Shown piece after piece: positions 2,146 through 23,710 of a DNA stretch of 64,000 nucleotides. The stretch is from Colwellia polaris. GTDB lineage: Bacteria > Pseudomonadota > Gammaproteobacteria > Enterobacterales > Alteromonadaceae. Each line of letters starts with the position of its first letter. Position 1 is the first letter of the stretch. The notes under the pieces are model-generated. The model was not told where the DNA came from. It made no database searches and saw only the letters and a program-made list of their open reading frames with translations. A program made the position numbers and the translations under genes. The stretch is taken from positions 248,001 to 312,000 of the forward strand of contig NZ_NBOE01000001.1 of NCBI RefSeq assembly GCF_002104515.1, in the 5' to 3' direction.

Positions 2146-3108
2146 TTAGCCTTGAGGAATAATAGCTTGCCATAGCTTAGCTAAACTCTCGTCGACAACG
2201 TTAAAAGCTATGCCTGCTAAAGGTGAGTCGATAATGGTTATTGTCGATTTTAAAAGTTGATCGTCTCTAAAAAAGTGGCAGTTTAGTTCACTATTTTCAG
2301 CTTGATGATCAAATATGGCTTGTATTGATTGTTCGGTAACTTTGACATGATCAACGGCAATAAGTACATCGTTAACCGCAATGCCAGCTTTAGCCGCAGG
2401 TGACTCTTCTAATACTTGGGTAATGGTTAAACCAAAAGGCTGTGCCTTATATTGTGCGCCTAAATAAGCATGAAAGTTTGTAGCAGAAGTTGTTTCTACA
2501 CTGTTTAGTTTTTTAAACTTATGCTTTTGTAGTTCAACGCCAACTTTAGCTAACTCGGCTGTTAGATCAATACGTTCAGTGCTATATAAGTGGTGTTTAA
2601 ATGCTGCTGTAATATCTTCGCCACAAAGTAGGTTGGCTATATTAATAAAGTCTTCTTCGCTAGTACCAACATTCGTCCGCCCAAAATGTATCCATAATTC
2701 TCGCATTAAGGTATCTAAGCTGTATTGGTTATTAGATTTTTCACGAATTGTTAAATCTAACCACAAAGCGATGAACGCTCCTTTAACGTAATAACTTACT
2801 ATGTTGTTTACGGCGTCTGGGCCTTGTTGATAAAACTTGGTCCAGGCATCAAAACTAGAGGCCGTGATGCTTTGTTTTAACTCACCTACTCCGCGACTAA
2901 TGCGTGTAGCTCCTTTTGCCAAAATAGTTAAGTATTCTTCAAAAGTAATGATGCCGGTGCGATAAAGTGCAAAGTCATCGTAATAAGAGGTTATGCCTTC
3001 AAAAGCCCATAACTGTTTGGTATAGCTTTCTTGTTGTAAATTGTAAGGAATAAATTCTTTTGGTTTTATACGACAAACATTCCAAGCATGGAAGTATTTG
3101 CCATACAT
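2146..3108 (-). pseudogene. C-terminal half of host M61 glycyl aminopeptidase, cut off by element insertion
   Basis: From residue 8 on, the sequence is an M61 peptidase after the HExxH motif: AWNVCRIKPKEF, then LWAFEGITSYYDDF with the third zinc ligand Glu, and a C-terminal PDZ domain (about residues 215-300). The zinc His pair and the N-terminal domain are at 22814-23710, on the far side of the element. Joining the two through one ATGGAA core gives 597 in-frame codons including the stop. The first codons (MYGKYFH) come from the element, so the element supplies an ATG at 3108 in frame with the remnant. No clear ribosome site precedes it. Without HExxH the fragment cannot be a peptidase; a stable PDZ-containing product is possible but unsupported. 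Confidence 0.93.
3088..3093. other. Left attachment core (ATGGAA), host-element junction
   Basis: Left of the core is host peptidase sequence (...CATTCCAAGC); right of it is element (GTATTTGCC...). The core reads TTCCAT on the minus strand, the Phe-His codons of HEYFH. Serine recombinases exchange strands within a 2-bp centre, so the true crossover dinucleotide lies somewhere in these six bases. Confidence 0.88.
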
Positions 3109-3211
3109 TTAACCAAAATAAAGAAATTATAATAATTATTATATTTTAATTAGTTAAATAAATCGTTAATATCAATTATTAGTGGATATAGGCTTTAATA
3201 CAGTGACGTAT

Positions 3212-3856
3212 ATGACAATAAAAAATCAAACTCTCCAAATAGCAACAACTTTCATTTTATTATTTATTACTTTTCAATCATTTGCATTTGAGCAAAAATT
3301 ACCAAATAAAGTTATCCAAGAAAATCCAATTACAAATATTGAAAAAAATAATAATTTCGATTCTGTATTCCTTAATAATTATATTCATGAAAATAAGGTG
3401 ACAACAGAGCAATTAGCAATTCAGAGTACTGAAATAAAGCATCTACAGAATAATTTTAATAAGCAAGTAACTAAAAACGAAGGCCTAGAAAATCAAATAT
3501 TGTCGCTTAAAAAACAGCTATATCAAGTAAAGTCAAATGTAGATGCAAGTGATAATAGTAGCAGTATTGCTAGTGTATTATTAACGGCCGTAGCCGTTAT
3601 AGTTACCACTCTTGGGGTTATAATCGCGGTTATAACTTTTATCGGTTACAAGGATATAGTTCAAAGAGCGGAAGATAAGGCTAGAGAAATTACAGCTTCT
3701 TTAATTAACAAAACAGCAAATGATGAGATGACTAGACTCATTGACAGTGGCGCATTTGAATCTCATATAACTCAGGCTGTTGATAGAGTTGTATATAAAG
3801 ATTTATATGCAGATGAAGAACTTACAAATGACGATGACACTAGTGTAAATAAATAA
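3212..3856 (+). CDS. Secreted or periplasmic coiled-coil protein with one membrane segment
   Basis: The 214-aa product starts MTIKNQTLQIATTFILLF, a signal peptide with likely cleavage after SFA. A helical Gln/Lys/Glu-rich coiled coil spans about residues 50-108, followed by one strongly hydrophobic segment (about 119-145) and a charged C-terminal tail. I do not recognise a named family. A GTG start at 3182 would add ten residues; neither start has a clear ribosome site, and 3212 is chosen because it gives a normal signal peptide. It is the first rightward gene of the element and lies 11 nt before the ImmA gene, so it is probably in one transcript with it and the beta-family gene. A role as membrane partner of that module is inference. 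Confidence 0.7.
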   Translation: MTIKNQTLQIATTFILLFITFQSFAFEQKLPNKVIQENPITNIEKNNNFDSVFLNNYIHENKVTTEQLAIQSTEIKHLQNNFNKQVTKNEGLENQILSLKKQLYQVKSNVDASDNSSSIASVLLTAVAVIVTTLGVIIAVITFIGYKDIVQRAEDKAREITASLINKTANDEMTRLIDSGAFESHITQAVDRVVYKDLYADEELTNDDDTSVNK

Positions 3857-3867
3857 GGCAAATTTTT

Positions 3868-4362
3868 ATGAGAACATCTCAAGAGTGGAATCAATTAAGT
3901 GATCAAAATAAAGAATTGATAATTAGCTTTCAACAAAATTTTCCAATCCCTGTTGGTGCTATTGCTAAAAAATTAGGAATAATAGTTAAAAAGTCCACTT
4001 TACCTGCGGGTATTTCTGGTGAAATTAAAGAAGAAGACAATGTTTGTATTATTCGAGTGAATAGACATGATGTTAAAGCTAGACAACGATTTACTCTTGC
4101 TCATGAAATAGCGCATTTTTTACTTCATAAGCACTTACTAAGAGATGGCATCACTGATGATATTTTATATAGATCAAACCAATCTGATGCAATAGAAGCA
4201 CAAGCAAATCGACTAGCTGCTGATTTAATTATGCCACCAAGTTTAGTCAATCAAGCTATGAATATTTATCAAGATAAAAAAGATGAACAAAAATATGAAC
4301 TGATAGCTCAAGAAGCTGAAGTATCAACGGTTGCTTTGAAGATTCGATTGGGTAAAAAATAG
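3868..4362 (+). CDS. ImmA/IrrE family metallopeptidase
   Basis: The 164-aa protein has the zinc motif HEIAH at residues 79-83 in the context RFTLAHEIAHFLLH, and the downstream ligand region EAQANRLAADLIMP (Glu near 110), typical of the ImmA/IrrE (COG2856) family. Characterised members cleave repressors, as ImmA of ICEBs1 does with ImmR, or regulators of the DdrO type. The usual N-terminal HTH is absent, so this is the peptidase-only form. Its stop codon TAG (4360-4362) overlaps the Shine-Dalgarno AGGAG of the next gene, indicating tight coupling to the beta-family gene. The substrate is unknown; no ImmR-like repressor is evident in the element. Confidence 0.88.
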   Translation: MRTSQEWNQLSDQNKELIISFQQNFPIPVGAIAKKLGIIVKKSTLPAGISGEIKEEDNVCIIRVNRHDVKARQRFTLAHEIAHFLLHKHLLRDGITDDILYRSNQSDAIEAQANRLAADLIMPPSLVNQAMNIYQDKKDEQKYELIAQEAEVSTVALKIRLGKK

Positions 4363-4371
4363 GAGAATAAC

Positions 4372-5499
4372 TTGTTTCTTGAAATTGAAAATAAAAATTT
4401 TAAATATATTCCTATTTTAGCTATTAAACCTGCTGAAATGTCAGCTTTAGAGGAGCTACCAGAAAAAGATAAAGACATATTATTACCTTTGTTCTCTTTA
4501 AAAGGCTGGGCAGGCTCTAAAAAATTAAAAAACACACCAGAACGTATATCTAAAGCTTTTGGAACGAAAAACTGGATAGCTGATATAGATCAATCTTTTA
4601 TCAAAGATAAAACTAAATCAGCGGATGGAGAATACCCTAGAGAGGTTTACCATCAAATTGAGGAGTTGCTTGATCCGAATGATGGTTACTCCAATTGGTT
4701 TGAATATTTAAAAGAGTTACCAAATGCTATTCCTTGCTTGCAGCTCGGAGATGAAAAGGTTATTAGTGAACAAATTCAGAAATTGACTTCTTTAGATAGA
4801 GGATTAGTTACTAAATTTGACTTTAATTTCATTCAATCAGAAGTTTATATAGAAATTTTAAAATCTATAGCTTCTGAAAACTATGAAGATAACTTAGTTA
4901 TTTTTGATTTTGAAGAAGTGACTGTTGATACGGTAAATTCAGCACCGTTAATTGCTTCTGTAATTCAAGAAGCTCACCTTATACTCCCTGACGCATTGTT
5001 TGCGGTTTCTGGCACATCATTTCCTAATGGGTTTGCAAATCAACATTTAGGTGAAAACCCTATAAGAGAAAGACAGCTCTTTCAAAAAGTAATTAATTTA
5101 TGCGAAGGTATTAGGTTCGTATACTCCGATAAAGGTAGTGCAAAAGCAGAACAACAAAATGGTGGAGGTGGTATCCCCCCTTATCCAAGAATAGACTACC
5201 CATTAAAAAATGATTGGAGATTTGTAAGACATGAATTTGATGATCCATATGATATTCAAGATGGCGAAAAAATCGAATTATATAAAAAGGCTTCTATTGA
5301 GTTAATGGGGATGGATTATTGGATTAAAAATTTACACCTTTGGGGAACTCAACTTATTGAATTGACAGCCAAAGGCGATAAAATGGGGATTAGTAATCCT
5401 ATGAAGGCTACAGCCGTAAGAATTAATATACATCTCCATCAACAACTTCATTATGATGTTATTGAAGTTGTAGATACAGATGAAGATTGGGAAGATTAA
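4372..5499 (+). CDS. Beta-family protein (phage T4-type 'beta protein' domain)
   Basis: The 375-aa product reads KYIPILAIKPAEMSALEELP at its start, the opening pattern of beta-family proteins (Y-x-PIL-K-x-E-x-xAL-xxL), and ends with a pattern like their C terminus (W...GTQLIELTAKGDKMG.SNP, then a His-rich INIHLHQQLHYD). The start is TTG at 4372, chosen because AGGAG lies 6 nt upstream and overlaps the ImmA stop. Biochemical function of the family is not established; members are common in mobile elements and near defence genes, often next to sce7726-type proteins, as here. It is convergent with that gene, and the two stop codons share the palindrome TTAA. Confidence 0.68.
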   Translation: MFLEIENKNFKYIPILAIKPAEMSALEELPEKDKDILLPLFSLKGWAGSKKLKNTPERISKAFGTKNWIADIDQSFIKDKTKSADGEYPREVYHQIEELLDPNDGYSNWFEYLKELPNAIPCLQLGDEKVISEQIQKLTSLDRGLVTKFDFNFIQSEVYIEILKSIASENYEDNLVIFDFEEVTVDTVNSAPLIASVIQEAHLILPDALFAVSGTSFPNGFANQHLGENPIRERQLFQKVINLCEGIRFVYSDKGSAKAEQQNGGGGIPPYPRIDYPLKNDWRFVRHEFDDPYDIQDGEKIELYKKASIELMGMDYWIKNLHLWGTQLIELTAKGDKMGISNPMKATAVRINIHLHQQLHYDVIEVVDTDEDWED

Positions 5500-6254
5500 A
5501 CTGTAATAAGTGTTTGATTTAATTTATACAGTTTCTTAACTTTTGGGTCTTTTTTTAGTTTGTTTTCCCATTCATTCCACAATTTTTGTTGATTGATTTT
5601 ATTTGTTTTTTCGTTTTTTCTTTCTTCAATATAGTGGCTGAGATGTATGATATCTTGAGGTGATACATTCCTATTTTTCACTTCATCCCAAAATTTTAGG
5701 TTAGTCGAAAGATACCTAGAAGAAATACTAGTTAGTACAGCTTCCCTTAAATTATGAATTGAACTTTGTAGTAGTTTTTCCTCAAGGTGTTTTCGATTTT
5801 TTGCTGAAATATCAATATTTAGCTTTTTACTTAATTTTAATAACTCATTAGATTTTAATAAATTAATTAATTTTTCTTTATTCTGATTTTTTTCAACTTT
5901 ACCGCGTTGTTTTATTAAGAATTCATTATTCTTTACTTCCCAAACACTTACATTGCTAGGAACTAACTGAAGTGTCGCACCTACATGTTTTGATGCGACA
6001 ATGATTACAACTTTATCGAAATACTCTAAATATTTTTCAACTTGCCCTTCTAATCGATATAAAGAGTCAGCTTCACTTTTTATTTCATACCCAATAATTT
6101 TTCTATTATCAATGGTTATTAAATCAGCTCTTCTAGATAGGTTATCAAGAGTAAATTCATTAATTATAGATACACTTTTATCTAAACCATCATGATTAAT
6201 TAAATGGTTTATTAATAGTGCTTTGATATCTATTTCTAATAGTTTTTTATTCAT
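5496..6254 (-). CDS. sce7726-like protein with PD-(D/E)xK nuclease-type residues
   Basis: The 252-aa protein has an N-terminal domain of about 95 residues with RRADLI (Asp44), GYEIKSEADS (Glu57-x-Lys59) and a following helix with Gln71 (GQVEKYLEYFD). The order D...ExK...Q on a beta-alpha core is that of PD-(D/E)xK nucleases and of the sce7726 family. The C-terminal half is helical and Lys-rich. The gene ends convergently with the beta-family gene with a 4-nt shared TTAA. A DNA-cleaving role in defence or element maintenance is inference; the fold call is from motifs only. It starts 24 nt after the stop of the cargo M61 gene on the other side, and is itself downstream of that gene on the same strand. 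Confidence 0.62.
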   Translation of the reverse strand: MNKKLLEIDIKALLINHLINHDGLDKSVSIINEFTLDNLSRRADLITIDNRKIIGYEIKSEADSLYRLEGQVEKYLEYFDKVVIIVASKHVGATLQLVPSNVSVWEVKNNEFLIKQRGKVEKNQNKEKLINLLKSNELLKLSKKLNIDISAKNRKHLEEKLLQSSIHNLREAVLTSISSRYLSTNLKFWDEVKNRNVSPQDIIHLSHYIEERKNEKTNKINQQKLWNEWENKLKKDPKVKKLYKLNQTLITV

Positions 6255-6278
6255 ATTTTATATTTTAATTTATTAAAA

Positions 6279-8075
6279 TTATTTAATACTATTCCAAAAT
6301 TTTACTTTTTCTTTATCGAATATATTTAATTGAGTTAACTCGTTAATTGGCAACGTAAGAAGTATGCAAGCATTATATAATTCACCATTACGAATATAAG
6401 TAATATTATATTCTTTATTTAATGCCAAGCTATTAATAACATCAGAAAAGTTTCCTTTACTCACTACAATATTATCAATAGCAATAATATTATCTTGAAC
6501 GCTAATTCCTGCTTTTTCGGCAGGTAAATCTTCTAACACCTGAGTTACTTCTATACCTAATTTAGCTTCTTTAAACATAAAACCGATAAATGGAGTATGG
6601 TTGTCTGTTGAAATTTCTAATAGTGAATTAGCTTTTGACGGTACTTTTTCAAGCTTTACGCCAAATTCAGCCAATAAATCAGTAAGTGGAACTGGTGATT
6701 TATCATTTAATAAATGATTAAATTCTTGCGTTAAATTTGTTTGAGTTAATTCATTAACGATATTAATAATGGTATCTAATTGAGTACCTTTATAATCAAC
6801 ACCTTTATTAATAAATTCAGCCCATAAAGTACGCATTACATCATCTAATGATTTAGTTGCATTGGTGGTCTTGCGAATGGTTAAATCGAGCCACAGAGCG
6901 ATTAACGAGCCTTTAGTGTAGTAACTAACAATGTTATTAGTTGCATCAGCCCCTTGTTGATAAAATTTTGTCCATGTGTAGAAACTGGATTCAATTAAAT
7001 TTTGTTTTAATTGACCTTTACCACGGTTTACACGGCTAATAGTTTTACTTTTCAGCTTTAAATAATCTTCAAATGAAACAATACCAGTTCTGAATAAACT
7101 AAAATCATCATAATATGAAGTAATACCTTCATATGCCCAAAGCTGTTGAGTGTAACTTTCATTATTTAATGAATATGGAACAAATTCTTCAGGTTTAATT
7201 CTGCAAACGTTCCAATTATGAAAATATTCATGCGAAATTAAGCTTAATAAAGTTTTATAACCATCGGATAATTCTTCAGGCTTATTTATATTCGGAAAAT
7301 CAAACGTTGAACATAATAATGCCGTAGAGTTTTTATGTTCTAAACCACCAAAACCATTAGGTAAAATATTAGTTAAAAACCAATATTCTTTAAATGGTGG
7401 TTTACCACCTGTATTTTTTTCAAATAAATCTATATGGTGCTGACAAAGCTTAGTTGTATCTCTAACCAACCTTTCCGTATCAGCATAATGTTTACCATTT
7501 AAAATTAAATAATGAGTTGTTCCTGCAACCTCAAACTCTAGGTGAGTAAAATCACCAATTTCTACAGGACAATCGATTAACTCGGCATAATTATCACTTT
7601 CATAAATACCAAAGCTATAAAGCGATGTTGTACTCGTTCTCTGTAAACCTGTTGCTACTTTCCATGACTCTGTGAAGCTTGGCTTTATTAAGTTTACTTG
7701 ATGCTTATTATTTTGAAATTCATTAACAGATATAAATAAGCTTGTACCATTAAAAAATGCTCTATTTTGATCTAAATAAGCGGTTCTAACTGAACTATCA
7801 AATGCATAAACTTGATACTCAATAATGCATTCATCACCATTAGTTTCAACCGACCAGTTTTGTTTATCAATCAGTATTATTTCTAAATTATCATTACCTT
7901 TTTTGGCAGCAAGATTAATAATGTTTTTAGAAAAATCGCGAACCATATAAGAACCAGGGATCCATGCAGGTAAAGATAAATTTAAAACTGATTGTGGATG
8001 TTTAGGTATTTCAACTCTTACATTAAATATATGTTTATTGGCATCATCAAAGTGAACAGAATATTTTAAAGTCAT
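6279..8075 (-). CDS. Element-borne full-length M61 glycyl aminopeptidase with PDZ domain (replacement copy)
   Basis: The 598-aa protein is complete: N-terminal beta domain (LPAWIPGSYMVRDFSKNI near 36-52), zinc motif HEYFHNW (residues 282-288), third ligand Glu in WAYEGITSYYDDF (about 316), and C-terminal PDZ domain (about 495-560). M61 enzymes release N-terminal glycine or alanine from peptides; with no signal peptide it should be cytoplasmic. It is clearly homologous along its full length to the split host gene (596 codons when rejoined), and conserved blocks are near identical. The DNA has diverged, including across the integration core (TTTCAT here, TTCCAT in the host). I infer that it restores the activity lost by insertion. 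It is on the same strand as the host gene and has its own upstream region (8076-8392). Confidence 0.93.
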   Translation of the reverse strand: MTLKYSVHFDDANKHIFNVRVEIPKHPQSVLNLSLPAWIPGSYMVRDFSKNIINLAAKKGNDNLEIILIDKQNWSVETNGDECIIEYQVYAFDSSVRTAYLDQNRAFFNGTSLFISVNEFQNNKHQVNLIKPSFTESWKVATGLQRTSTTSLYSFGIYESDNYAELIDCPVEIGDFTHLEFEVAGTTHYLILNGKHYADTERLVRDTTKLCQHHIDLFEKNTGGKPPFKEYWFLTNILPNGFGGLEHKNSTALLCSTFDFPNINKPEELSDGYKTLLSLISHEYFHNWNVCRIKPEEFVPYSLNNESYTQQLWAYEGITSYYDDFSLFRTGIVSFEDYLKLKSKTISRVNRGKGQLKQNLIESSFYTWTKFYQQGADATNNIVSYYTKGSLIALWLDLTIRKTTNATKSLDDVMRTLWAEFINKGVDYKGTQLDTIINIVNELTQTNLTQEFNHLLNDKSPVPLTDLLAEFGVKLEKVPSKANSLLEISTDNHTPFIGFMFKEAKLGIEVTQVLEDLPAEKAGISVQDNIIAIDNIVVSKGNFSDVINSLALNKEYNITYIRNGELYNACILLTLPINELTQLNIFDKEKVKFWNSIK

Positions 8076-8202: not shown

Positions 8203-8232
8203 GGGTTTGCTAGTTCTAGCTCTAGTAAACCC
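8203..8232. repeat. Strong inverted repeat with three CTAG motifs
   Basis: GGGTTT-g-CTAG (8203-8213) pairs with CTAG-t-AAACCC (8222-8232) around an 8-nt loop that itself holds CTAG. On the + strand it is followed by AATTTTTT, so it could terminate transcription, yet no + strand gene ends just before it. CTAG at 2-nt spacing three times could also be an operator or part of the transfer origin. Confidence 0.6.
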
Positions 8233-8284
8233 AATTTTTTACGATAAATTTTAATTATGTAGAAAGCGTACATATTTTTTAAAA

Positions 8285-8392: not shown

Positions 8393-9388
8393 ATGAAAAC
8401 TATAAAAACAATAATAAGAACAGAAAAAATAAAAACCATTCAACAGCTTCACAATGTTGGTGCTCATAATAATCGCTTAAAAGATGTGCCGAATGCATCA
8501 CCTAACCATGATATTAAAAGGCTGATAGGTACTACGAATTTAGTATTTGATGTTAAAAAATATTTAGAGAAACATGATTTATCAATAGGTGGTTTACGAA
8601 AAAATGCAGTGATTTGTAATGAATTACTGTTGACGCTTTCACCAGAATATTTTGATGAGAACGAACTAGATTTTAAAAATAAATTTAATAAAAAAAACAC
8701 GTTAGACTTTATTAAAAAAGCTAAAGATTTTTTGATAAATAAATACGGAAATAAATTAGTGCATTTATCGGTACATTTAGACGAATCGACACCTCATATT
8801 CACGCTGTTGTCGTACCTACATACTTAGATAACGTTTCAGGTAAACACAAGTTAGCAGCTAAAAGGTTCTTTGATAGATCAGATTTACAATTACTTCAAA
8901 AAGAGTACTGCGAAACATTTAAATCAATTAAAGAATATAAATTTTCATATCAAGAAAAATCAACTGCGAAGCATCAGGATTTAAAATCTTTCTATAAAAA
9001 CCTTGATGATACAAAAAAAGCGTTAACTGTTGAAGCTGTAGGCTTAAAGCAGAGAGTTCAATTATTGGAAAACAAAAATAAAGCTCTAATACAAGAAGTA
9101 AAATCTAGTTTTATTGAAAAAGTAAATTTAACAGATGAGCTAATTACAGAACAAGAAAAAGTAATAAAGCTTGAGAGCTTTATTACTAAAACATTGATGA
9201 TAGTAGAAAAAGTCGCTCCGCTGATTATTAATAAGTTACGGAATATATTTATAAAAAAAGATAATAATTTTTTTAATAAATATTTAGATAAAAAAAGAGC
9301 AAATAAAAAAGAGCATAAGAATACAGTTAATAAAAGCGAACAACCTAGAAACTCTATTATTAAACCTAAGTCAAAGCCTAGCGACTAA
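8393..9388 (+). CDS. MobV-type (Pre/Mob) relaxase
   Basis: The 331-aa product carries the MobV signatures: HNNR at residues 25-28 and HLDESTPHIHAVVVP at 128-142, the metal-binding HxDExTPHxH motif. Such relaxases nick oriT and lead a single strand through a conjugation channel. The N-terminal 190 residues are the catalytic domain; a coiled coil follows (about 200-260) and then a Lys-rich tail. The start at 8393 follows TAAGG. A good terminator comes after the stop. It makes the element mobilizable rather than self-transmissible, since no mating-pair genes are seen. Very AT-rich codon use sets it apart from the host genes. Confidence 0.88.
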   Translation: MKTIKTIIRTEKIKTIQQLHNVGAHNNRLKDVPNASPNHDIKRLIGTTNLVFDVKKYLEKHDLSIGGLRKNAVICNELLLTLSPEYFDENELDFKNKFNKKNTLDFIKKAKDFLINKYGNKLVHLSVHLDESTPHIHAVVVPTYLDNVSGKHKLAAKRFFDRSDLQLLQKEYCETFKSIKEYKFSYQEKSTAKHQDLKSFYKNLDDTKKALTVEAVGLKQRVQLLENKNKALIQEVKSSFIEKVNLTDELITEQEKVIKLESFITKTLMIVEKVAPLIINKLRNIFIKKDNNFFNKYLDKKRANKKEHKNTVNKSEQPRNSIIKPKSKPSD

Positions 9389-9399
9389 TTATTATTTCG

Positions 9400-9518: not shown

Positions 9519-10196
9519 TTATTTGCTGAATTTACGTGAGGCTAAACCAAGTAGTCCCATAGCAAAAATAACTAACGTAGAAGGCTCAGGTACTTCTAAA
9601 GAGTCCTGTAATGAGTTTTTAACTAATAATGTACTATAAGAATCATACCCAAGATTTCTTATACTATCGAAATTTCCATTATCTCTTAATAAAATATCAT
9701 CAGATACGCCTAAATGAAGCGTATAATTTCGATATTCTACATATGAAAGTCCATCTGCACCTTCAAAAAAACCATAGGCTTTAAATGCTTCACCAGAGCC
9801 ATAAGGAGATGCTTTGTTATAGCCTATTAGTTCAAAAACACCATCAAATACACTTTCGGTTTTGGCATCATTATTCTTATCACGAGCAAGAAATTGACCA
9901 TCACCGTATCTATCAGGTGTTTCTATATCAGCTTCAACACCATCTAAGTTAGCAACATTTGCCCACATGACATAAACTTCATCTACTGTTGGTAATCTCC
10001 AACCTTCATAGTCACCATCAGTTGATAACTGACTTGAAATAAAACTAAAAGACTGTCCGTTATTAACACCAAAATCCATCCACTCAAGTGATGTGGTTGA
10101 ATCGATAAAACTGTCACGGTCTGTATCAGTAATTAACCCTGCACTAGCATTAAAGCAAGAAAAAACAAAAGCCATTCCCCAAAATAAATTTTTCAT
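9519..10196 (-). CDS. PEP-CTERM protein with DUF1566/Lcl-type domain
   Basis: The 225-aa protein has an N-terminal signal peptide (MKNLFWGMAFVFSCFNASA) and a C-terminal sorting signal starting VPEPSTLVIFAMGLLGL and ending RKFSK: the PEP motif, a transmembrane helix and a basic tail, the target of exosortase. Between them GWRLPTVDEVYVMW and SLEWMD are the hallmarks of the DUF1566/Lcl-type fold. Such proteins are processed at the outer face of the inner membrane and exported, often in biofilm-forming Gram-negatives. It is the last of three minus-strand secreted genes; the lipoprotein gene upstream ends 20 nt before it. No exosortase is encoded in this window, so function would depend on the host. 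Confidence 0.85.
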   Translation of the reverse strand: MKNLFWGMAFVFSCFNASAGLITDTDRDSFIDSTTSLEWMDFGVNNGQSFSFISSQLSTDGDYEGWRLPTVDEVYVMWANVANLDGVEADIETPDRYGDGQFLARDKNNDAKTESVFDGVFELIGYNKASPYGSGEAFKAYGFFEGADGLSYVEYRNYTLHLGVSDDILLRDNGNFDSIRNLGYDSYSTLLVKNSLQDSLEVPEPSTLVIFAMGLLGLASRKFSK

Positions 10197-10215: not shown

Positions 10216-10545
10216 CTACAAATTTAAACCAGTAATTTTGAACTCACCGTCAACTTTTTCTACAACAATTGGCATAGACATCTCTTCTTCACCAAGCATA
10301 AATAGAAACTTTTCTTCCGATATTTTTTTTATTTCTTCGCCACAATTAGCTTTTTTACGCGCTGATTCTGTCAAATATGGAAAGTTAACAAGTTTTGAAT
10401 CAGTGCTTAGTTCGCTAAGAGTTTCAGTATCTATCTTTTTAAATGCTTCACAATAATCAGCTATAACTGTTCGAGCATTATCTTCTGGTGTGCTGCAAGC
10501 TGAGAGTAAAATAACGGCAAACAGTGAAAACGATCTAAATTTCAT
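10216..10545 (-). CDS. Small putative lipoprotein
   Basis: The 109-aa product starts MKFRSFSLFAVILLSAC, a lipoprotein signal with lipobox LSAC; the mature protein is short, acidic and contains two further Cys. The start at 10545 follows GAAGGA; a longer frame is possible but would bury the signal peptide. The C terminus (VEKVDGEFKITGL) resembles the end of the next lipoprotein upstream (IEKVDGSYFVVDV), suggesting two related DUF4878/NTF2-like small lipoproteins, a family call I hold weakly. It lies 13 nt after that gene's stop, so the two are one transcript, with the PEP-CTERM gene after it. Confidence 0.7.
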   Translation of the reverse strand: MKFRSFSLFAVILLSACSTPEDNARTVIADYCEAFKKIDTETLSELSTDSKLVNFPYLTESARKKANCGEEIKKISEEKFLFMLGEEEMSMPIVVEKVDGEFKITGLNL

Positions 10546-10558
10546 TTGAATTTCCTTC

Positions 10559-10924
10559 TTAATCAACATCAACCACAAAATATGAACCGTCAACTTTCTC
10601 AATATCCATATTGAAAACTCCACGTTCAAAATAAAATTTAGTTCTTTCTTTTTTAGGGACTGATTTTTTTACTTCACACGACATGCGATCAGATAGGGTT
10701 GCCCAAGAATCTGGATTATCGTCAACTTCTTTTTTAAGCTTTTTCAAATCATTTTTATTTAGCATCACTTCAAGTTGTTCAAAGTTTGCATCAAGCATCT
10801 CTTCACACGCTTTACTTGCAAAGTTTTCGATAGTTAAAGTAGATAGCTGTTCTTTTGTTTGAAGGTCACTACAAGCAGAGAGAGATAATGCCAATATCGG
10901 CAAAGTTAATAGCATCTTGTTCAT
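10559..10924 (-). CDS. Small putative lipoprotein, relative of its downstream neighbour
   Basis: The 121-aa protein starts MNKMLLTLPILALSLSACS, with lipobox LSAC. The mature part has a conserved Cys pair (KACEEM and MSCEVKK) and ends with the IEKVDGSYFVVDV motif shared with the neighbouring lipoprotein. The upstream in-frame ATGs at 10948 and 10936 are less likely because the signal peptide starts here. First gene of a three-gene minus-strand unit; the region 10925-11080 should hold the promoter. It may be controlled by the nearby ECF sigma factor, but I see no convincing ECF promoter. Function unknown. Confidence 0.7.
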   Translation of the reverse strand: MNKMLLTLPILALSLSACSDLQTKEQLSTLTIENFASKACEEMLDANFEQLEVMLNKNDLKKLKKEVDDNPDSWATLSDRMSCEVKKSVPKKERTKFYFERGVFNMDIEKVDGSYFVVDVD

Positions 10925-11080
10925 TTTAAAATCCATTCCACAATTCATAAATAAAGTAAATGTATGGAAAAAACAGGACGGATAAAAGACACGTATTTCT
11001 AGTCGAAAACACGTAAACTTTTTTTAATTTTTATTGGAAGGTATCAACTCTATAATTTTAGAAGTGAGCTGATGTTTAAC

Positions 11081-11656: not shown

Positions 11657-11745
11657 TGCTTACTCCTACTAGATGACAACCTATCTTTAGTATTACAATA
11701 TGAAACAATAGCTTAAATTAATTTCACTAGGAAGCCAAAAATAAA

Positions 11746-14598: not shown

Positions 14599-14635
14599 AA
14601 ATACCTTACTCCAGCGACTTAAATCCAAGGTATTT
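14599..14635. terminator. Inverted repeat between convergent kinase and membrane-protein genes
   Basis: AAATACCTT (14599-14607) pairs with AAGGTATTT (14627-14635) with a 19-nt loop. It overlaps the last codons of the minus-strand gene and lies just after the kinase stop, so it may serve as a weak two-way terminator. Confidence 0.4.
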
Positions 14636-16213: not shown

Positions 16214-16215
16214 AA

Positions 16216-16575
16216 TTAACTTCCTTGTTTTGGCTTTAAAGTAATATCTCTAACATAGAAATGTTGATTTAATTTCACAACTTTTTTCTTTTTTTGATAG
16301 CCCTGAGAAGAAACTTCAATAATATACTCCCCCTCAGGTAATAGCATGTATCTTTCATATTTCTGCTTAATATTCATTATTTTAATATCTGCATAAATAG
16401 GCCAAGTATTTATAACTAAAGGGAACTCTTTTTCTTTTGTCTCTTTATGAGAAAAAGATGAAGTCTTGGAATATTTCCGATCTATATCACTAGGAGCTGA
16501 AGTAGATATTTTGTAAGTAATAAAGGAGGCTAGGAGAATCAGCCAAATGCCGAATAACTGAGGAATAGATAACAC
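16216..16575 (-). CDS. Small membrane-anchored PEGA-domain protein
   Basis: The 119-aa product has an N-terminal membrane helix (PQLFGIWLILLASFITYK) followed by a PEGA-type domain: IKIMNIKQKYERYMLLPEGE then YIIEVSSQGYQKKKKVV. PEGA domains are short beta-sandwich modules on the outer face of the membrane, often in proteins tied to Ser/Thr kinases or cell-surface assemblies. The start is GTG at 16575 because AAGGA lies 10 nt upstream; a GTG at 16608 is also in frame. The domain matches the C terminus of the 767-aa membrane protein upstream (IRIMNIAPKYQSGMHLKPGA), so the two are probably partners or duplicates. Confidence 0.75.
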   Translation of the reverse strand: MLSIPQLFGIWLILLASFITYKISTSAPSDIDRKYSKTSSFSHKETKEKEFPLVINTWPIYADIKIMNIKQKYERYMLLPEGEYIIEVSSQGYQKKKKVVKLNQHFYVRDITLKPKQGS

Positions 16576-16760
16576 GCTGCAAACATCCTTATTATAATAA
16601 TTGAACACTAAAATACATTGCCAGAGAGCTAATTGTCAATTAAAACAAGTACCTGATGTTGTATGTTAAACAAAATTTTTATATCTTTTGCTTAACTGAT
16701 TATTGGTAGACAACAAAGCGACTAAAGCTGTCAACCATGTGGTTGATTATATAGCATTAA

Positions 16761-16800
16761 AGTGCTCTAAGTGGAAAATAACCATATTATTTTCAGCACT
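16761..16800. repeat. Inverted repeats in the gap between the two PEGA genes
   Basis: GAAAATAA (16774-16781) pairs with TTATTTTC (16787-16794), and outside it AGTGCT (16761-16766) pairs with AGCACT (16795-16800) with an asymmetric bulge. A second hairpin, TCAACC-atgt-GGTTGA, lies nearby at about 16728-16743. The 267-bp gap may contain a terminator for the GDPD/PEGA transcript and a separate promoter for the small PEGA gene. No T run is evident on the minus strand. Confidence 0.4.
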
Positions 16801-16842
16801 ATATCTTTAATACAATTTTTGATAGAACTTAAAGGTTCTAAT

Positions 16843-19146
16843 TTAATGCAAAATGACTTCTAAGTTCTGTTCTCCTGCTAATAACTGATGCCATTCGCGA
16901 TAGGTTTCGTATCCGTTAGCTGATACTTGTATATCGTAAGCCCCTGGCTTTAAATGCATTCCTGATTGATATTTAGGAGCAATATTCATAATTCGAATTG
17001 TCGTATTCTCGACATTAGGCAAGATAGTTAGACGTGTTATTCCTTTTATTACGTCTTTCATATTTTTCTTTTGATTATTAGAAAGCTGCCACTGAGGAAG
17101 TTGCTCATCTAACTTAGCTAAAACATGAATAAATGGCTTGGTATTTTGATAAATATTTGTTTTATTTTCAAAGGCTAATCCCATAGGGTGCAATACAGGT
17201 TGGGCATGCAATGTCCAACGTAGTGCATATGAAAACACCGAATTACTAGCATTTTCAACCTTGACTAAAAAATAATTCACGGGGCTATTTGTTTGTGCTG
17301 TAAATTGATTGCCAACCAACATGACAGGTAAAATAATTAATAAAATAGGGGGTAATGACTTAATTGCAAATGTAACACTTTTTCTTTGACCTTCTAGCCA
17401 GTTAGGTTTAATAACTTCGACTAATTTAACAGGTAGTTTAATGAGCGTTAAACAGATAAGAAATAAGCTAAGTGACATCGAAATAGGAGGAATAATTACA
17501 GACCTCAGAGCTTGCTTTCCTACTTCGGCATACTTTTCACCATCTTCAAAATGTTGCCTCGCATCTTCTATCATATCTAGATAACGCTGTGTTCGTTTTT
17601 CAATATTTGGATCTAGAACATAACGTTTAAAGTTTGCTTGATTCCAGTCAGATTTGATGTTGTGTACATAGGTGTCGCCCATTTGTAATTTAATTTTCTT
17701 TTGTACACTAGGGTGAAGCTGAAATGAATCCCAATCAAGGTTTATTGGTAAGTCTAATCCTTTCTTCTTCATTGCTTGCTGCCACTGTTTATCGGCATCG
17801 GCTTTAACTTTATTAGCCACTGACTGAGCAAATTCATTACGATTAGTAATTTTCCAATTTTTAGAGAGGGTTAACCCTTTTTCAGTAAGCGATTTACGTA
17901 TGCGCTGTTGAGTTACATTATGCGTTCTAAAAGTCGTCAAGGTTTGAATCCCCATAGGGTAGCCTGTTTCACTTTTAAATTGCGCCTGAAAATTAGGATG
18001 TTGTAAAATTTTTAACTGATAATGCTCAGGATCATCCGTATATTTATATCGCTTATCTTTTATTCCGCCGTCACCTCCAGTAGCTAAACTTAAACCTTGC
18101 ATTACAGTAGTGAGGCCACCAGTAAGCAAACCTGAAAGCAGAGTATTTGCTGTATTCTCCAAGCCACTTACATCTTCCACAATAAGCCAATAACTCGGCT
18201 CCACATAACCTAGACCCGCTTTATCAATTTCCCTTTTATATCTCGCATGCAATCGTTCAATACACTTGGCTTTTCGGCTTCTTTGAGAATACTTTTTATA
18301 TTTCTCAGAGCAGCGATTTGTTGATTCATGGTATTGATATATTTTAGGACCATATTTTTGCGCTCTGGCTTCAGCGCGAGCAATAAATGTTTTGTTCGCT
18401 TGTTGGTATTTTTCCCATCCTTGATTGACTTCTTGCTCTACATTTTTCCAATAACCTTGCTCACGGTTAGGGATATCTGCGAGGGTTTGGTTATACTTAT
18501 TGGAGCCTTTAGCATACTCGCTGTAGTTGCCTGAAAGTCGATCGTAAAGTGCTGAATAGTCTTGAAAATGTTGGGTAAAATCTTGATATGCTTTCTTTTG
18601 AACAAATTGTTTAATAATGTCTTTTTTATGGCTCTCTAGATTGTCAGCTAAAGTTTCGTCAGCATATAGTAATCCACCAAATAGAGCTAAAAAGGTTAGG
18701 TTTTCTGACGTTTTCATCTCTTGTGCGTCATACTCTAAGTCGGCTACTTCTAATGCATTAATTGCTAAAGCATCTCGAAACACAGCACTTAAAACTGCGT
18801 ATTCCCGCTCTTGTGAACTTGAAGGAGCGATTAGTAAATTTTCTACTAGTGCTTTTTGACCAAAATAAACCGTTGGCCATATGATTGCTGCAAGGATTAA
18901 AAGCGATATGACACCTTTGCTTGTGCTTTTATAAAATTTGGCAGGCAATAAATCGGCGATTAATAAAGTGACTCCTATTCCTGAAATAGCTCTCCCATAA
19001 ATTTCTAACTGTTCAAGAGCACTTTCTTCTGGAGTACCTAAGCCAATAAGAGAGACTAATTGGGCATTAAAAATGGCTTCAGGTATCAGGTATGCGGCAC
19101 TGAGTATTAAAAATGTTGCACGCCAAAATGTTGATTTTAACCTCAT
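16843..19146 (-). CDS. Large membrane protein with C-terminal PEGA domain
   Basis: The 767-aa protein has about three N-terminal membrane helices (first 100 residues), a long charged, helical central region (about 110-550) rich in Lys/Gln/Tyr, two further helices (about 560-620) and a C-terminal PEGA domain (about 700-767: TTIRIMNIAPKYQSGMHLKPG, GAYDIQVSANGYETYREW). I know no named family for it. It starts at 19146 in the TAATG overlap with the stop of the GDPD-like gene, so translation is coupled. The combination of PEGA domain, membrane segments and lipid-type phosphodiesterase neighbour points to the cell envelope; the exact role is unknown. Confidence 0.75.
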   Translation of the reverse strand: MRLKSTFWRATFLILSAAYLIPEAIFNAQLVSLIGLGTPEESALEQLEIYGRAISGIGVTLLIADLLPAKFYKSTSKGVISLLILAAIIWPTVYFGQKALVENLLIAPSSSQEREYAVLSAVFRDALAINALEVADLEYDAQEMKTSENLTFLALFGGLLYADETLADNLESHKKDIIKQFVQKKAYQDFTQHFQDYSALYDRLSGNYSEYAKGSNKYNQTLADIPNREQGYWKNVEQEVNQGWEKYQQANKTFIARAEARAQKYGPKIYQYHESTNRCSEKYKKYSQRSRKAKCIERLHARYKREIDKAGLGYVEPSYWLIVEDVSGLENTANTLLSGLLTGGLTTVMQGLSLATGGDGGIKDKRYKYTDDPEHYQLKILQHPNFQAQFKSETGYPMGIQTLTTFRTHNVTQQRIRKSLTEKGLTLSKNWKITNRNEFAQSVANKVKADADKQWQQAMKKKGLDLPINLDWDSFQLHPSVQKKIKLQMGDTYVHNIKSDWNQANFKRYVLDPNIEKRTQRYLDMIEDARQHFEDGEKYAEVGKQALRSVIIPPISMSLSLFLICLTLIKLPVKLVEVIKPNWLEGQRKSVTFAIKSLPPILLIILPVMLVGNQFTAQTNSPVNYFLVKVENASNSVFSYALRWTLHAQPVLHPMGLAFENKTNIYQNTKPFIHVLAKLDEQLPQWQLSNNQKKNMKDVIKGITRLTILPNVENTTIRIMNIAPKYQSGMHLKPGAYDIQVSANGYETYREWHQLLAGEQNLEVILH

Positions 19147-20576
19147 TATTTTTCGCTTCCTTTGCGTAATTCTATCTTAATTGCTTCTTCTGAACTGAGA
19201 TTAACAGCAGAGCCTGCTTCTTTTTTTCCTGCCGTAGTGTTTAGGATCACAGGAGTGTATTTGAGTGCTGTAATTCTTTTGCCTATTGATTTTAATTGAT
19301 CACCAATTGCTGGATATAAACCGCTATCAAAATAGAGGTTAATTTGATCTAGCCGCTCAAGATCAAGATCTTGTGGTAACATAGTCAAACGTTTGCTTAA
19401 GCCTGATATGGCAATATGTTTTTTCATTTCAGGCAATCCATATTCGCTACAAAAGCCATACAAAGTATCGTCAATAATTACTGAAGTTGGTCTACTTTTA
19501 CTCTTTATGCTTAATAAAGATTTCGCATGATATGCTTGGCCGTTAATTGTATAAGTTGCAATAGGAATGCCTTGTTGGTCTACCAACCTTTTTATCTTGC
19601 TAGCACGTTGCCCATACTGACGAATATCCATTGCTAATCCGTAGTTATTTTTCAATGATTTTTTCAATTTAGCCATACCAAGAACATCGTCATAGCGATA
19701 CTCCTTATAACGGCGACTTGCCACTCCTGCTAAGTCTTCAAGTAAGCTTTTGTTGCGTAAAAATATGGGATCAGCCCCCGCACCTTTTTCAAGATCATTA
19801 CGTAATACGGCCAGTGAACGATTTGCTGGACTTTGAATAAACGACAAAAACACACTTGAGTTAATATCCCGCATTCTGGAGAGGTTTTTTAGTGTTAAGC
19901 TAGAATAAAAATAACGCCCTTGTCCAATAAGTTTGAAAGCTAAATAATCCAACATTTCCAAATCTCGGATAGATGCTTTAGTTTTTATTTCAATATTTAA
20001 AAGCTGTTTTGATTTTGCGTTACGAGAAAATGCGCTTGCAATTTGCCTAAAGCTTGGTGGTAATGTACTAAGTAGGCGACCTGTATTTTGATCTCTAATA
20101 CGTAAATATCCCCATTCCTTTTCATATCTAAGAGATTCAATTTTACGCCGTTTATTATCTACTGTACCTGTTTCACGCCCTGTTTGAGCATCATGGTGAA
20201 CAACCCAAACATCATCTCTTGTAACCCTTACATCTATTTCTACGACATCAAAGTTATTATCTAAAGCATCTATTAAAGCGTTAACCGAATTTTCAGGGTG
20301 TCTCACCGCACCACGATGACTTTGCACTTGATAGTTTGCACATTGCGGGGCATTGATATAATTAATATTACCTAACCGAGATTTATAAAATCCTCGTGCA
20401 GCTAACGCTTTTGAAAGCGATGAAGTCTGTTGTTGAGTAGCAGAGTTATCATTTGTGCTTTTGGAACGACTAGATTGTTTAGATGTACTGGAACAACTAC
20501 TAATGAGTATAAGAGCTAAAAGGATAGAAAAAATTTTGCATATATCATTACTTGTTAGGAGATGCTTTAAATTCAT
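19146..20576 (-). CDS. Glycerophosphodiester phosphodiesterase-family lipoprotein
   Basis: The 476-aa product has a lipoprotein signal (FSILLALILISSC, lipobox ISSC near residue 30) and a GDPD TIM-barrel: QSHRGAVRHPENS (His and Arg for catalysis, Glu for metal), VVEIDVRVTRDDVWVVHHD (EID metal ligands and second catalytic His). GDPDs hydrolyse glycerophosphodiesters to glycerol-3-phosphate and an alcohol. About 100 C-terminal residues after the barrel are extra and unassigned. The start at 20576 is chosen over an ATG at 20618 because it follows AAAGGA and begins the signal peptide; the longer form would overlap the recombinase gene. It overlaps the next gene by TAATG. Confidence 0.85.
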   Translation of the reverse strand: MNLKHLLTSNDICKIFSILLALILISSCSSTSKQSSRSKSTNDNSATQQQTSSLSKALAARGFYKSRLGNINYINAPQCANYQVQSHRGAVRHPENSVNALIDALDNNFDVVEIDVRVTRDDVWVVHHDAQTGRETGTVDNKRRKIESLRYEKEWGYLRIRDQNTGRLLSTLPPSFRQIASAFSRNAKSKQLLNIEIKTKASIRDLEMLDYLAFKLIGQGRYFYSSLTLKNLSRMRDINSSVFLSFIQSPANRSLAVLRNDLEKGAGADPIFLRNKSLLEDLAGVASRRYKEYRYDDVLGMAKLKKSLKNNYGLAMDIRQYGQRASKIKRLVDQQGIPIATYTINGQAYHAKSLLSIKSKSRPTSVIIDDTLYGFCSEYGLPEMKKHIAISGLSKRLTMLPQDLDLERLDQINLYFDSGLYPAIGDQLKSIGKRITALKYTPVILNTTAGKKEAGSAVNLSSEEAIKIELRKGSEK

Positions 20577-20598
20577 TGGTAATAGGGTCCTTTCAGAA

Positions 20599-22812
20599 TT
20601 ACTTTGTAATATTCTCATAATATGGATTCTCTTTTACAGGCTTTTTAGGCTCAGGAATTTTAAATAATTCAGGGTATTTACCTAAAATAAAATGGGGAGG
20701 GTGAACCGTATCTACTTGTTTGATTTTCCAATCGTCAAACATTGAATCAATTTTGTTGAAATGATCGGTAATGCTTTTAAATTTATCAATGTTTTGTACG
20801 CCTGAAACTTGAATATCTAGCTCTTTACCTGCGACTAATTTCTGAATTTGCTCTGTAGCTAGTTTAAAAATACTGTCAAACACTGAATCATCATACGGTT
20901 CAATTTCTTCACGATCTTGACCAAATTTTAAATATTTATTTTCCTGATAATATTTATTGTTGAGTCTAATTGCTCGATTAATTTTATGAATATAATCAAG
21001 ATCAGGGTGCATTTTATTTCTTATCATAACTATATGTTCTGATGAAAATTCTGCACTTGCCTCATAAAAGCTTTTATCTACAGGAAAGCGAACTAAAAAG
21101 GTTTCAGAAAAGTCGTCAGGGTTTATATCAAACACCACCTGATCATCGACAATTGATAAAGTTGATAAAAATGCTTTTCTAAGTTTATTTTTGTTCAATA
21201 AGATAGTGGCATATTTGTTATGACCATCGAGCAATATACCGTTTATTGATATTCTAATTAAGTTATGTAGTTTATGCTTTTGTTCAAAATCATCACTTTG
21301 CATAACTTGCTTGTATATATCGCACATATTATTGAGCGATTGATTTGCTAAACTTATGCTTTCATTAATCTCTAATATTTCACTTTTTAGCTTATCTTCT
21401 TGATTATCTATTGCCTGTAATAAAAGATTTTTTTCATCGATTTGTTTCGCTATTTGCTGAATATTGCCCGTTGTTATATTTGAACTTAATAACGTCAAAT
21501 TTTCAATTTGTTGGTTAATCTCTAATTTCTTAGCATCAACTTTTTCTAATTCATTTTTAATTGAATTGACTCTCATGTTTCGATTTTTATTGTTAAACAA
21601 CAAAGTAAAATTAATTTCTTTAATAAATTTAAAAAATAATTTTTCTAAGTAATCAAAACGAATAGGTTTATTTGTACAACCAGCTTTGTTCGCATAATCA
21701 ATACACTTACAGTTTGGGTAAACTATTTTTCTTCCTGTTTTTTTATTGGTATAAGTGCTGGTGTAATGTGAAAAGTTTTTACCGCATTCTATACAAATCA
21801 ATAACCCTGTGAAGATATTCCCTTTGTTACCAGTTCGCCCACCAATTCCTCGTTTTATTTTTTGCGGCTTTTTCCCATGATCTTTATTGTTAAATATAGT
21901 AATACATCGTTCTTCTGCTTTTTCTTGCGCTTTATTAAATAAAGTTTCAGAGATAATCGCAGGATAAAAATTTTCTATCTTTTCACCTGTAGGTGTTGAT
22001 ACTCGTCTTTTAGTTTCAGGATCTTCTTGCTTCGTGCAAATATCTAACTGTCCAAGAACTCGCTTATTTTTGAAAAGATTTACAATGCTGGATGTTTTCC
22101 ACTTTCTACCCGTAAAAGAAAGTGTACCCTCTTCATTTAAAATAGAACAAATAGTGGGTTTACCGTACACAAGAGACATTTCAAAAATACGTTTAACAAC
22201 TTCAACTTGTTCAGGGATTGGCTCTAATCGCCACTCGTTAGAATTTTCGATTTGAACCTGTTTAAACCATTTTGGGTGAGAATTTAACTTTCTACCAACA
22301 CCATTTCGGTAACTTTTCCATTTTTCAGCATAAGCTTCTTTTATCCTGCTCGATTTAATTTCTGACTCCATATTTGCTCTAGATAATTGCATTAGAGCGA
22401 GCATAATGCTGTCAGGTGAGGCTTTTTGTTTGTATAACTGCTGATCACTTAATGTGATTACATTTACACCTTTATTTAATAATGAAAGAAAGCTTACTAA
22501 AGCTTCATGTGGATGTGCTCTTGAGTATCGATCTAAACTTTCCATGATCAAATAAAACGGTTTAGATTTAACATCAACCTTTTCATCTTCAATAGCTTGA
22601 ACAAGTGCGCCCAATCCACCTTTAGTGAATTGTTCATCGTGATAAGCACTTTTTCCTAGGTCTTCAACTTCACTTAAAACTTCTAAGTCATGCCTTTCCT
22701 TGAATGTTTCAAATGATTCTTTTTGCCTTCTAAGACTATCGCCTTGGGCTTGTTCAATAGATGAAAATCGGCGATATGAAATCGCATTCCCTGATAATTT
22801 TTCTGTGATCAT
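20599..22812 (-). CDS. Large serine recombinase (integrase of the element)
   Basis: The 737-aa protein begins with the resolvase domain: ISYRRFSSIEQAQGDSLRRQ, where Ser17 in Y-R-R-F-S is the likely nucleophile, and MESLDRYSR for the conserved Asp-Arg region. A recombinase DNA-binding domain follows (about 180-290), then a zinc ribbon (CIECGK near 340 and paired Cys 30-40 residues on), a coiled coil (about 410-490) and an unusually long C-terminal region to 737. Large serine recombinases integrate between short attP and attB sites and need a directionality factor to excise. The ATG at 22812 is 1 nt after the stop of the truncated host peptidase, without a Shine-Dalgarno, so it probably relies on translational coupling. 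Confidence 0.93.
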   Translation of the reverse strand: MITEKLSGNAISYRRFSSIEQAQGDSLRRQKESFETFKERHDLEVLSEVEDLGKSAYHDEQFTKGGLGALVQAIEDEKVDVKSKPFYLIMESLDRYSRAHPHEALVSFLSLLNKGVNVITLSDQQLYKQKASPDSIMLALMQLSRANMESEIKSSRIKEAYAEKWKSYRNGVGRKLNSHPKWFKQVQIENSNEWRLEPIPEQVEVVKRIFEMSLVYGKPTICSILNEEGTLSFTGRKWKTSSIVNLFKNKRVLGQLDICTKQEDPETKRRVSTPTGEKIENFYPAIISETLFNKAQEKAEERCITIFNNKDHGKKPQKIKRGIGGRTGNKGNIFTGLLICIECGKNFSHYTSTYTNKKTGRKIVYPNCKCIDYANKAGCTNKPIRFDYLEKLFFKFIKEINFTLLFNNKNRNMRVNSIKNELEKVDAKKLEINQQIENLTLLSSNITTGNIQQIAKQIDEKNLLLQAIDNQEDKLKSEILEINESISLANQSLNNMCDIYKQVMQSDDFEQKHKLHNLIRISINGILLDGHNKYATILLNKNKLRKAFLSTLSIVDDQVVFDINPDDFSETFLVRFPVDKSFYEASAEFSSEHIVMIRNKMHPDLDYIHKINRAIRLNNKYYQENKYLKFGQDREEIEPYDDSVFDSIFKLATEQIQKLVAGKELDIQVSGVQNIDKFKSITDHFNKIDSMFDDWKIKQVDTVHPPHFILGKYPELFKIPEPKKPVKENPYYENITK

Positions 22813-22813
22813 T

Positions 22814-23710
22814 CTAAGCAGCTAATGGAAGATTATTTATTTTGGTTAATTGTAGCACTGAATGGAAATATTCATGCGAGCATAAACTTAAGAATGTTTT
22901 GTAATTTTCAGTACGCTCTGATGATTTTTGCGCATTGGGTAAGTCGAAGCGGCTCGCTTGTAATATCGTTGAGTTTTTATGCTCTAAACCACCAAATCCG
23001 TTGGCGAGTAAATGGGTAATGAACCAATATTCTTTGAACGGCGCCTCACCGAACAAATTAATATGGTGCTGACATAACTTACTAACATCGTCGGCTAATT
23101 GTTGTGTGTCACCATAATGTTTACTGGTAAATACTAAGTGATGCACCACACCTTCTACGGTAAATTCAGTGCTATCGAACTCCCCAATGGCTACTGGGCA
23201 ATCAATTAAATGTTGGTAGTTATCGGCAATATAATTACCGAACTGATACTTTTCTGTGCCTTTTTCTCGGGGTAACCCTGTAGCTACACGCCACTGATTA
23301 TGTTCAGCTAAGGCTGAGGGTTGTATTTTAAGCTGACAAGGTTGTGCGCTTAATTCTTCAACTTGTAAAAATGTTGAACTACCGTTGAAAAAACCACGTT
23401 GGCTGTCTAAATAGGCGGTGCGTACGGATAGATCGAAAGCGAATACTTGATAACGCACTTGTACTTGTTCATCACTTGCCTGTAATAACCAGGTTTGTTT
23501 GTCAGTTTTAGTTAATTCAATAACTTCACCTACACTGTTAACGGCAGCAATTTCGGTAATGTTTTTCGCAAAATCACGGATCATATAACTGCCCGGCAAC
23601 CAAGCGGGTAGCGTTAGGGTATAGCTTTGATTTATCGTGCTTTTAAAAGACAGTAATACCTCAAATAAGTGACTATTTGGGTTAAGAGGAGAAATTTGAT
23701 ATTGGATCAT
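22814..23710 (-). pseudogene. N-terminal half of host M61 glycyl aminopeptidase, cut off by element insertion
   Basis: Residues 1-283 align with the N-terminal half of the element's M61 protein (LPAWLPGSYMIRDFAKNI; LDSQRGFFNGSSTF; GFGGLEHKNST) and end exactly at the last His of HEYFH. Then 15 codons of element sequence (SVLQLTKINNLPLAA) precede the stop, 1 nt before the recombinase ATG. The start at 23710 matches the cargo copy; an in-frame start exists at 23722. The product keeps HEYFH but lacks the Glu ligand and PDZ, so it should be inactive. Its transcription may now drive the recombinase. Confidence 0.93.
22862..22867. other. Right attachment core (ATGGAA), element-host junction
   Basis: Left of the core is element sequence (...TAGCACTGA), right of it host peptidase sequence (ATATTCATGCG...). 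Reconstructed attB is CCAAGC-ATGGAA-ATATTC; reconstructed attP is GCACTGA-ATGGAA-GTATTTG. attB contains the near palindrome TTCCA-agca-TGGAA at the crossover. Confidence 0.88.

Follow-up and report, generated by a model that had tools for sequence, protein, structure and literature searches.

Genomic islands usually spare the gene that they enter by restoring one of its ends; in such integrations, as at icd and tRNA genes, attP holds a segment of the gene and the junction is a working recombinant gene (PMC10111431). The recA mobile element (RME) of Vibrio cholerae S24 interrupts recA (494 of 1065 bp) and brings along a complete, divergent recA, a functional copy of its own which, according to the authors, spares the cell; a circular excised form and the intact empty site were also reported (PMC4405046). 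An island of Pseudomonas putida KT2440 splits the essential tmk gene and supplies the lost activity, as was established there by genetics (PMC10653934), and in Clostridioides difficile RT027 a thyA insert lies in thyX (PMC6700662; mentioned in PMC4405046). Elements with large serine recombinases (LSRs) enter specific sites in coding genes, and in one instance diverse LSRs share a conserved site (PMC10083194). The comparisons made below refer to the parts of these publications considered here.

The window analysed in this work is the whole 64,000-nucleotide stretch of Colwellia polaris DNA from which all positions are counted. It contains an element of 19,774 bp (3088-22861), inserted in the host gene for an M61 peptidase and carrying a complete M61 gene of its own (eM61). 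The features of the split gene, its flanks and eM61 are as follows.

1461-2078, minus strand: host flank, VOC/glyoxalase gene (Pfam)
2146-3093, minus strand: 3' (C-terminal) part of the host M61 gene, with Peptidase_M61 and PDZ domains (Pfam; in-frame join)
3088-3093: left core copy, ATGGAA (read in the sequence)
6279-8075, minus strand: eM61, complete M61 peptidase of 598 aa (Pfam M61 N-domain, M61 domain and PDZ)
22862-22867: right core copy, ATGGAA (read in the sequence)
22862-23722, minus strand: 5' (N-terminal) part of the host M61 gene, cut at HEYFH (Pfam Peptidase_M61_N, 183.7 bits; in-frame join)
23826-24686, minus strand: host flank, formyltransferase gene (Formyl_trans_N), named purU in the preliminary description of this DNA

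The preliminary description had placed the element exactly in the HExxH codons, with ATGGAA at each junction, and both copies of the hexamer are indeed found there. That a single core copy restores the gene in frame was also borne out: excision in silico yields an uninterrupted ORF, 600 codons plus stop when started at TTG 23722 or 596 codons plus stop when counted from ATG 23710. The 100-bp stretches at the two ends of the element share eight pairs of 6-mers, two of which give an open in-frame join. As the second of these, TTGTAA (3041/22899), deletes the HExxH region, ATGGAA is the sole pair restoring the conserved M61 protein in full. Neither junction ORF is complete (302 and 320 aa), and that of the N-terminal part extends into element DNA, to 22814. 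The host halves contain no further stop or frameshift, which suggests that the insertion was probably a recent event.

Judging from its sequence, we consider it likely that the locus holds an LSR-borne, probably mobilizable integrative element which splits the M61 gene of its host and pays for the break with a complete foreign M61. It resembles the RME in that both are site-specific, split a conserved gene and bring a complete divergent copy of it, while the RME differs in its 'phage integrase', its length of 32.8 kb, its 9-bp inverted repeats, its DNA-repair cargo and its target recA, as against an LSR and a 6-bp core here (PMC4405046). Since the integrase and the ends differ, the element would work like the RME without being a member of the RME family. 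In the tmk island the activity of the broken gene is likewise supplied by the island, although the recombinases there are of the tyrosine type and the substitute is a phage-type dNMP kinase, which is no orthologue of tmk (PMC10653934). The C. difficile insert also breaks a gene and brings the same activity (PMC6700662). With the end-restoring integrations the element shares the preservation of the target function by the island, but whereas one of their junctions is a whole recombinant gene (PMC10111431), here neither junction ORF is intact and the element brings an entire second gene. Carried full copies of the target, unlike here, are not discussed for LSR elements in the considered part of PMC10083194. 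Among the best-ranked titles and abstract openings from an open-access collection with few subscription papers and preprints, none described an LSR element that carries an entire M61, miaE, tag or patatin-like gene matching its target (the targets found below). The principle is already known; what is added here is a recombinase class and target genes for which no precedent was found in the open-access literature searched, together with evidence of recurrence.

The locus without the element was sought in relatives, as the preliminary description had proposed. An M61 match was found in 17 of 17 genus genomes and in 233 of 246 genomes of the family, and purU, M61 and VOC are consecutive, with M61 intact and of host type, in all but one of the 16 other genus genomes (15 of 16); in the exception, G004, an intact M61 of foreign type adjoins VOC. 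In a tree of 57 M61 proteins, the joined host M61 groups with those of the congeners, beside G007. No other M61 gene split within a contig was seen among the matches listed for the 246 family genomes, the partial match in G047 being cut by a contig end. Ten congeners have a second, weak M61 match (about 26-30 bits, frames of 334-402 aa). A DNA search of the 16 other genus genomes returned no element DNA beyond the M61 homology and a few short weak matches. The suggestion that the site would be present in many hosts holds at the level of the residues, which are conserved, but not for the exact core: TTCCAT occurs in only 4 of the 15 intact host-type congeners, the other 11 having TTTCAT (10) or TTTCAC (1).

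The recombinase and the putative attachment site are located as follows.

20599-22812, minus strand: LSR of 737 aa (Pfam Resolvase, Recombinase and Zn_ribbon_recom; phrog_95 integrase, 5e-66)
3104-3119: attP arm TACATTTAACCAAAAT, inverted partner of 22839-22854 in the circle joint
22839-22854: attP arm ATTTTGGTTAATTGTA, inverted partner of 3104-3119 in the circle joint

The LSR gene stands at the end of the element, its start 50 bp inside the right 6-bp core. In LSR elements, attP is expected to be a dyad centred on the core. The 16-bp arms ATTTTGGTTAATTGTA and TACATTTAACCAAAAT of the reconstructed circle joint are complementary at 15 of 16 positions and lie within 55 bp around the core. Over the joint, 20 of 30 pairs match, a value reached in 11 of 3000 shuffles and so not extreme; the same test on attB, attL and attR was equalled or bettered in 2598, 2683 and 678 of 3000 shuffles. 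Of these four sites, the circle joint alone has the dyad. The assembly is a draft of 28 contigs, which leaves room for an assembly or binning artefact, yet both junctions lie in one contig, an artefact would not be expected to give a dyad and an in-frame join, and a second element with a split gene and a copy stands on another contig of the same genome; this explanation is extremely improbable. The LSR at the element end, the in-frame join, the attP dyad and the intact M61 genes of relatives give good support to the interpretation in the preliminary description, namely that a site-specific element occupies the HEYFH codons and could be excised at one core copy. That description omitted the full-length M61 that the element carries, and hence how the host bears the break. 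One scan each of genome contigs and of viral contigs confirmed no close relative of the LSR, and searches in plasmids, phages and samples of 196 family, 394 order and 369 class genomes gave distant matches only, the best being 39% identical over part of the length; with no close LSR relative found, recurrence of exactly this element is not shown. Elsewhere in the genome, at G000:C25:206574-207563, there is an LSR frame broken by two stops, which shares 27% identity with residues 324-675 of the element LSR.

The carried enzyme, eM61, is identical to the joined host protein at 288 of 600 aligned positions (48%), unlike ThyA and ThyX, which belong to non-homologous enzyme classes. When aligned with PDB 4fgm_A, it retains HEYFH and the downstream EGITSYYDD, the residues of HEYFH and of the downstream glutamate motif being presumably catalytic. 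The M61 family is found at two places only in its own genome, namely eM61, in an open frame of 604, and the C half left by the break, in one of 320, so that eM61 is the sole intact M61 found there, and it is the only intact copy found here of a gene that relatives keep. At 48% identity, eM61 and the host M61 might differ in substrate. The two genes have the same orientation. A promoter scan at the eM61 start did no better than shuffles (5 found, against a shuffle mean of 3.6, sd 2.1). No relative of eM61 or of the 767-aa cargo protein was found in the viral contigs searched. In some other islands the integrity of the target gene is regulated (PMC10111431), and the host M61 could similarly be kept off and restored by timed excision, which here would indeed restore it. 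Such a switch requires a target that is inactive without replacement, and it would be defeated by the full replacement copy that is carried; we give this explanation very little probability. The core region of eM61 reads TTTCAT. The idea that it was specially recoded against re-insertion was dropped: the same codons are found in 10 of the 15 intact host-type congeners, so they may simply be inherited.

In the tree of M61 proteins, eM61 forms a pair with the M61 of G004 (support 100/99), inside a clade of nine rows (100/99; inner fork 84/99) whose remaining rows all come from one other genus of the family. Among them are rows whose last 580 residues are identical to records named Catenovulum and Gayadomonas; one more row of this Catenovulum-type genus, G099, branches elsewhere. 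Judged by this placement, eM61 is of Catenovulum-like, and foreign, origin. A simple count gives a dN/dS of about 0.10 between eM61 and the G004 gene (dS near 1), and purifying selection is therefore indicated in the eM61 lineage. The full-length M61 of G004 is 83.5% identical to eM61 and lies directly before VOC (L053 16855-18651), the downstream flank matching the host locus from about 15 bp past the stop codon. A foreign-type M61 thus occupies the native VOC side in G004. On the upstream side, purU is on another contig, 243 bp from its end (end of L324), and the upstream side of the M61 is accordingly either rearranged or unresolved. The DNA common to G004 and the element comprises the M61 gene and about 50 bp upstream only. 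The state of G004 is equally compatible with an old insertion from which the element and the host halves were lost and with capture of eM61 from a G004-like cell; as there is no trace of the element besides the M61 gene, the history of displacement is not favoured.

The behaviour of the element may be pictured as follows. After a putative transfer, the recombinase, if active, would recombine attP of the circle with an attB among the HExxH codons and so split the only M61 gene of the host, and the damage would be offset by the Catenovulum-like M61, read from its own upstream region. Because the element brings a complete M61, the cell would keep an M61 enzyme and bear the break, provided that eM61 is expressed and equivalent. 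Precise excision would restore the host M61, while loss of the element in any other way would leave no M61. If the element stays, the host halves could decay and the foreign gene would then become the resident one, a state that G004 may show.

Recurrence of the arrangement was surveyed in 53 LSR loci, mostly of 40 kb with several cut by contig ends (1.91 Mb in total). They comprise 18 relatives of this LSR (13 + 5), 32 of the 61 places listed for PF07508, where long open frames were preferred, and as further loci G082, chosen since a split miaE was already visible there, G026:C23 and this element. As controls, 80 loci chosen around M61 genes were used, which were shorter on average (1.43 Mb). 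A locus passed the strict screen when one ORF had partial matches at two places that lay well separated on the DNA and followed each other in the protein. This was the case in 7 of the 53 LSR loci (this element, G165, G113, G033, G082, G026 contig 23 and G293), all of which have an LSR and a full copy between the fragments, and in 1 of the 80 controls (L160), where five matching ORFs on both strands fall at the same three places, which looks like a DNA repeat. The difference gives a Fisher p of 0.007, or 0.033 when the two feature-chosen loci, this element and G082, are removed (5 of 51). Closer looks, applied to the LSR loci only and not to the controls, contributed three more (G358, G229 and G000:C12), so that 10 of the 53 LSR loci have a gene split and a full copy carried. 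The targets of the ten are M61 (one), miaE (five), tag (three) and a patatin-like gene (one). The copy is stop-free in all ten, its identity to the larger host fragment ranging from 47 to 92%. For one example of each other target, Pfam recognizes it as Patatin (34.4 bits), MiaE and Adenine_glyco. The break between the fragments lies at GGPKWF for the patatin-like gene and at CELKAAQ for miaE, both stretches being common to copy and host.

These loci bear on two other explanations of eM61. It could be ordinary cargo kept for its own benefit, its presence in an element that splits M61 being a coincidence: it lies far from the LSR, amid other cargo, while in G165 and G113 the copy abuts the LSR, and it is only 48% identical to the host protein. 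The coincidence would, however, have to repeat itself for miaE, tag and the patatin-like gene, and the screen separates seven of 53 LSR loci from one repeat-like control in 80; we find this account quite improbable. Alternatively, the element could have been selected since its M61 outperforms that of the host, and not for repair of the damage. The authors of the RME ask whether the island recA is more efficient and cite the C. difficile insert (PMC4405046), the thyA of which is called catalytically more efficient (PMC6700662), and a foreign-type M61 is found in G004. Nothing in this analysis marks the Catenovulum-type enzyme as better, though, and a single mode for four unrelated targets would fit repair better, which makes adaptive replacement unlikely.

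Two of the ten, G033 (miaE) and G229 (tag), had been candidates for end-restoration. This was rejected, and they are counted as full-copy loci, because separate N and C fragments exist in both, the C fragment of G229 consisting of 15 residues only. The nth gene at G127 and rimO at G166 and G080 do look like end-restoration, and further nth fragments lie near LSRs in G064, G102 and G177. At G080 (L211, L212), a full rimO is found beside an LSR, and two isolated N-terminal pieces of rimO follow at distances of about 6 and 10 kb, which would fit two end-restoring elements stacked at one site. The genome of C. polaris itself contains a second LSR element, at about 374500-401950 of G000:C12 (L271, L272, L327), in miaE, with about 26.7 kb between the fragments and a full-length miaE copy 62-64% identical to them.

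An IQ-TREE phylogeny was built for 52 LSRs, one broken frame being omitted. The full-copy LSRs all fall in one group of 19 rows (support 93/93), giving 10 of 19 inside the group against 0 of 33 outside, and the full-copy label requires 5 changes on the tree against a shuffle average of 9.4 (0 of 500 as low), a clustering which comes partly from close relatives (five miaE and two tag rows). The element LSR groups with those of G308 and G165 (85/94), on long branches and in no fully supported small set. In nine of the 19 rows a copy was not found; eight of these (G118, G001, G048, G537, G471, G013, G030 and G101a) were viewed only about 17-21 kb inward of the LSR, and in the ninth, G308, the contig ends in the LSR. 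The gene beside G308, G013 and G030 we take to be comM/yifB. The same anatomy thus occurs with four unrelated genes, in one recombinase group and twice in one genome. The chances seem to us evenly balanced that this group of marine Alteromonadales LSRs follows a 'break one, bring one' mode, in which recombinase specificity for conserved codons and a whole foreign copy of the gene are paired, the pairing having been re-formed for at least four targets. Under such a mode, integration would be nearly free and loss other than by precise excision would be punished, and decay of the host halves would drive the in-situ replacement of core genes by foreign orthologues, of which G004 may be an example. 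If the anatomy holds, it would provide a concrete vehicle for such replacement of single-copy core genes, which is otherwise apparent chiefly from phylogenies, and recombinases paired with rescue genes that would be useful for insertion into conserved sites.

The relaxase gene and the remaining cargo are listed below.

3182-3856, plus strand: cargo ORF with no Pfam match
3868-4362, plus strand: ImmA/IrrE-type peptidase, defence-like cargo (Peptidase_M78; PADLOC capP 1e-29, PD-Lambda-2_B 2e-9)
4372-5499, plus strand: Beta protein, defence-like cargo (Beta_protein 2e-51; PADLOC beta 3e-39, PD-Lambda-2_C 7e-9)
5496-6254, minus strand: sce7726-family protein, defence-like cargo (NCBIfam sce7726_fam; PADLOC cll 2e-51)
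8393-9388, plus strand: MobV-like relaxase (Pfam Mob_Pre 84.2 bits; NCBIfam MobV 96.6 bits)
9519-10196, minus strand: cargo protein with PEP-CTERM motif (Pfam)
10216-10948, minus strand: two overlapping cargo ORFs with no Pfam match (10216-10629 and 10559-10948)
11081-11656, minus strand: ECF sigma factor (Pfam, NCBIfam)
11746-14592, plus strand: serine/threonine kinase (Pfam)
14606-19146, minus strand: three cargo ORFs with no Pfam match (14606-16213, 16216-16608 and 16843-19146)
19146-20618, minus strand: glycerophosphodiester phosphodiesterase-like (GDPD-like) protein (Pfam)

The Mob_Pre match of the relaxase is over its cut-off, and that to MobV is just below the cut-off of 100. Since the Pfam matches of the 16 ORFs inside the element include no conjugation-channel family, the MobV-like relaxase suggests an element that is probably mobilizable. 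Relaxase matches were obtained in 9 of 246 family genomes including this one, the nearest other being 46% identical, and in the 40 kb around the two nearest relaxases (G042 and G182) no other element protein had a match. The sequence between eM61 and the relaxase gene, examined for an oriT, shows only AT-rich inverted repeats among the features listed. Between these two divergent genes, at 8203-8232, there is a stem-loop with a T tail, which is terminator-like and possibly part of an oriT region. The genes at 3868-6254, with an ImmA-type peptidase, a Beta protein, an sce7726/cll protein and weak matches to PD-Lambda-2 B and C, may form a defence module. Further along the element (11081-14592), the ECF sigma factor gene is divergent from that of the large serine/threonine kinase, and ORFs with no Pfam match adjoin the two.
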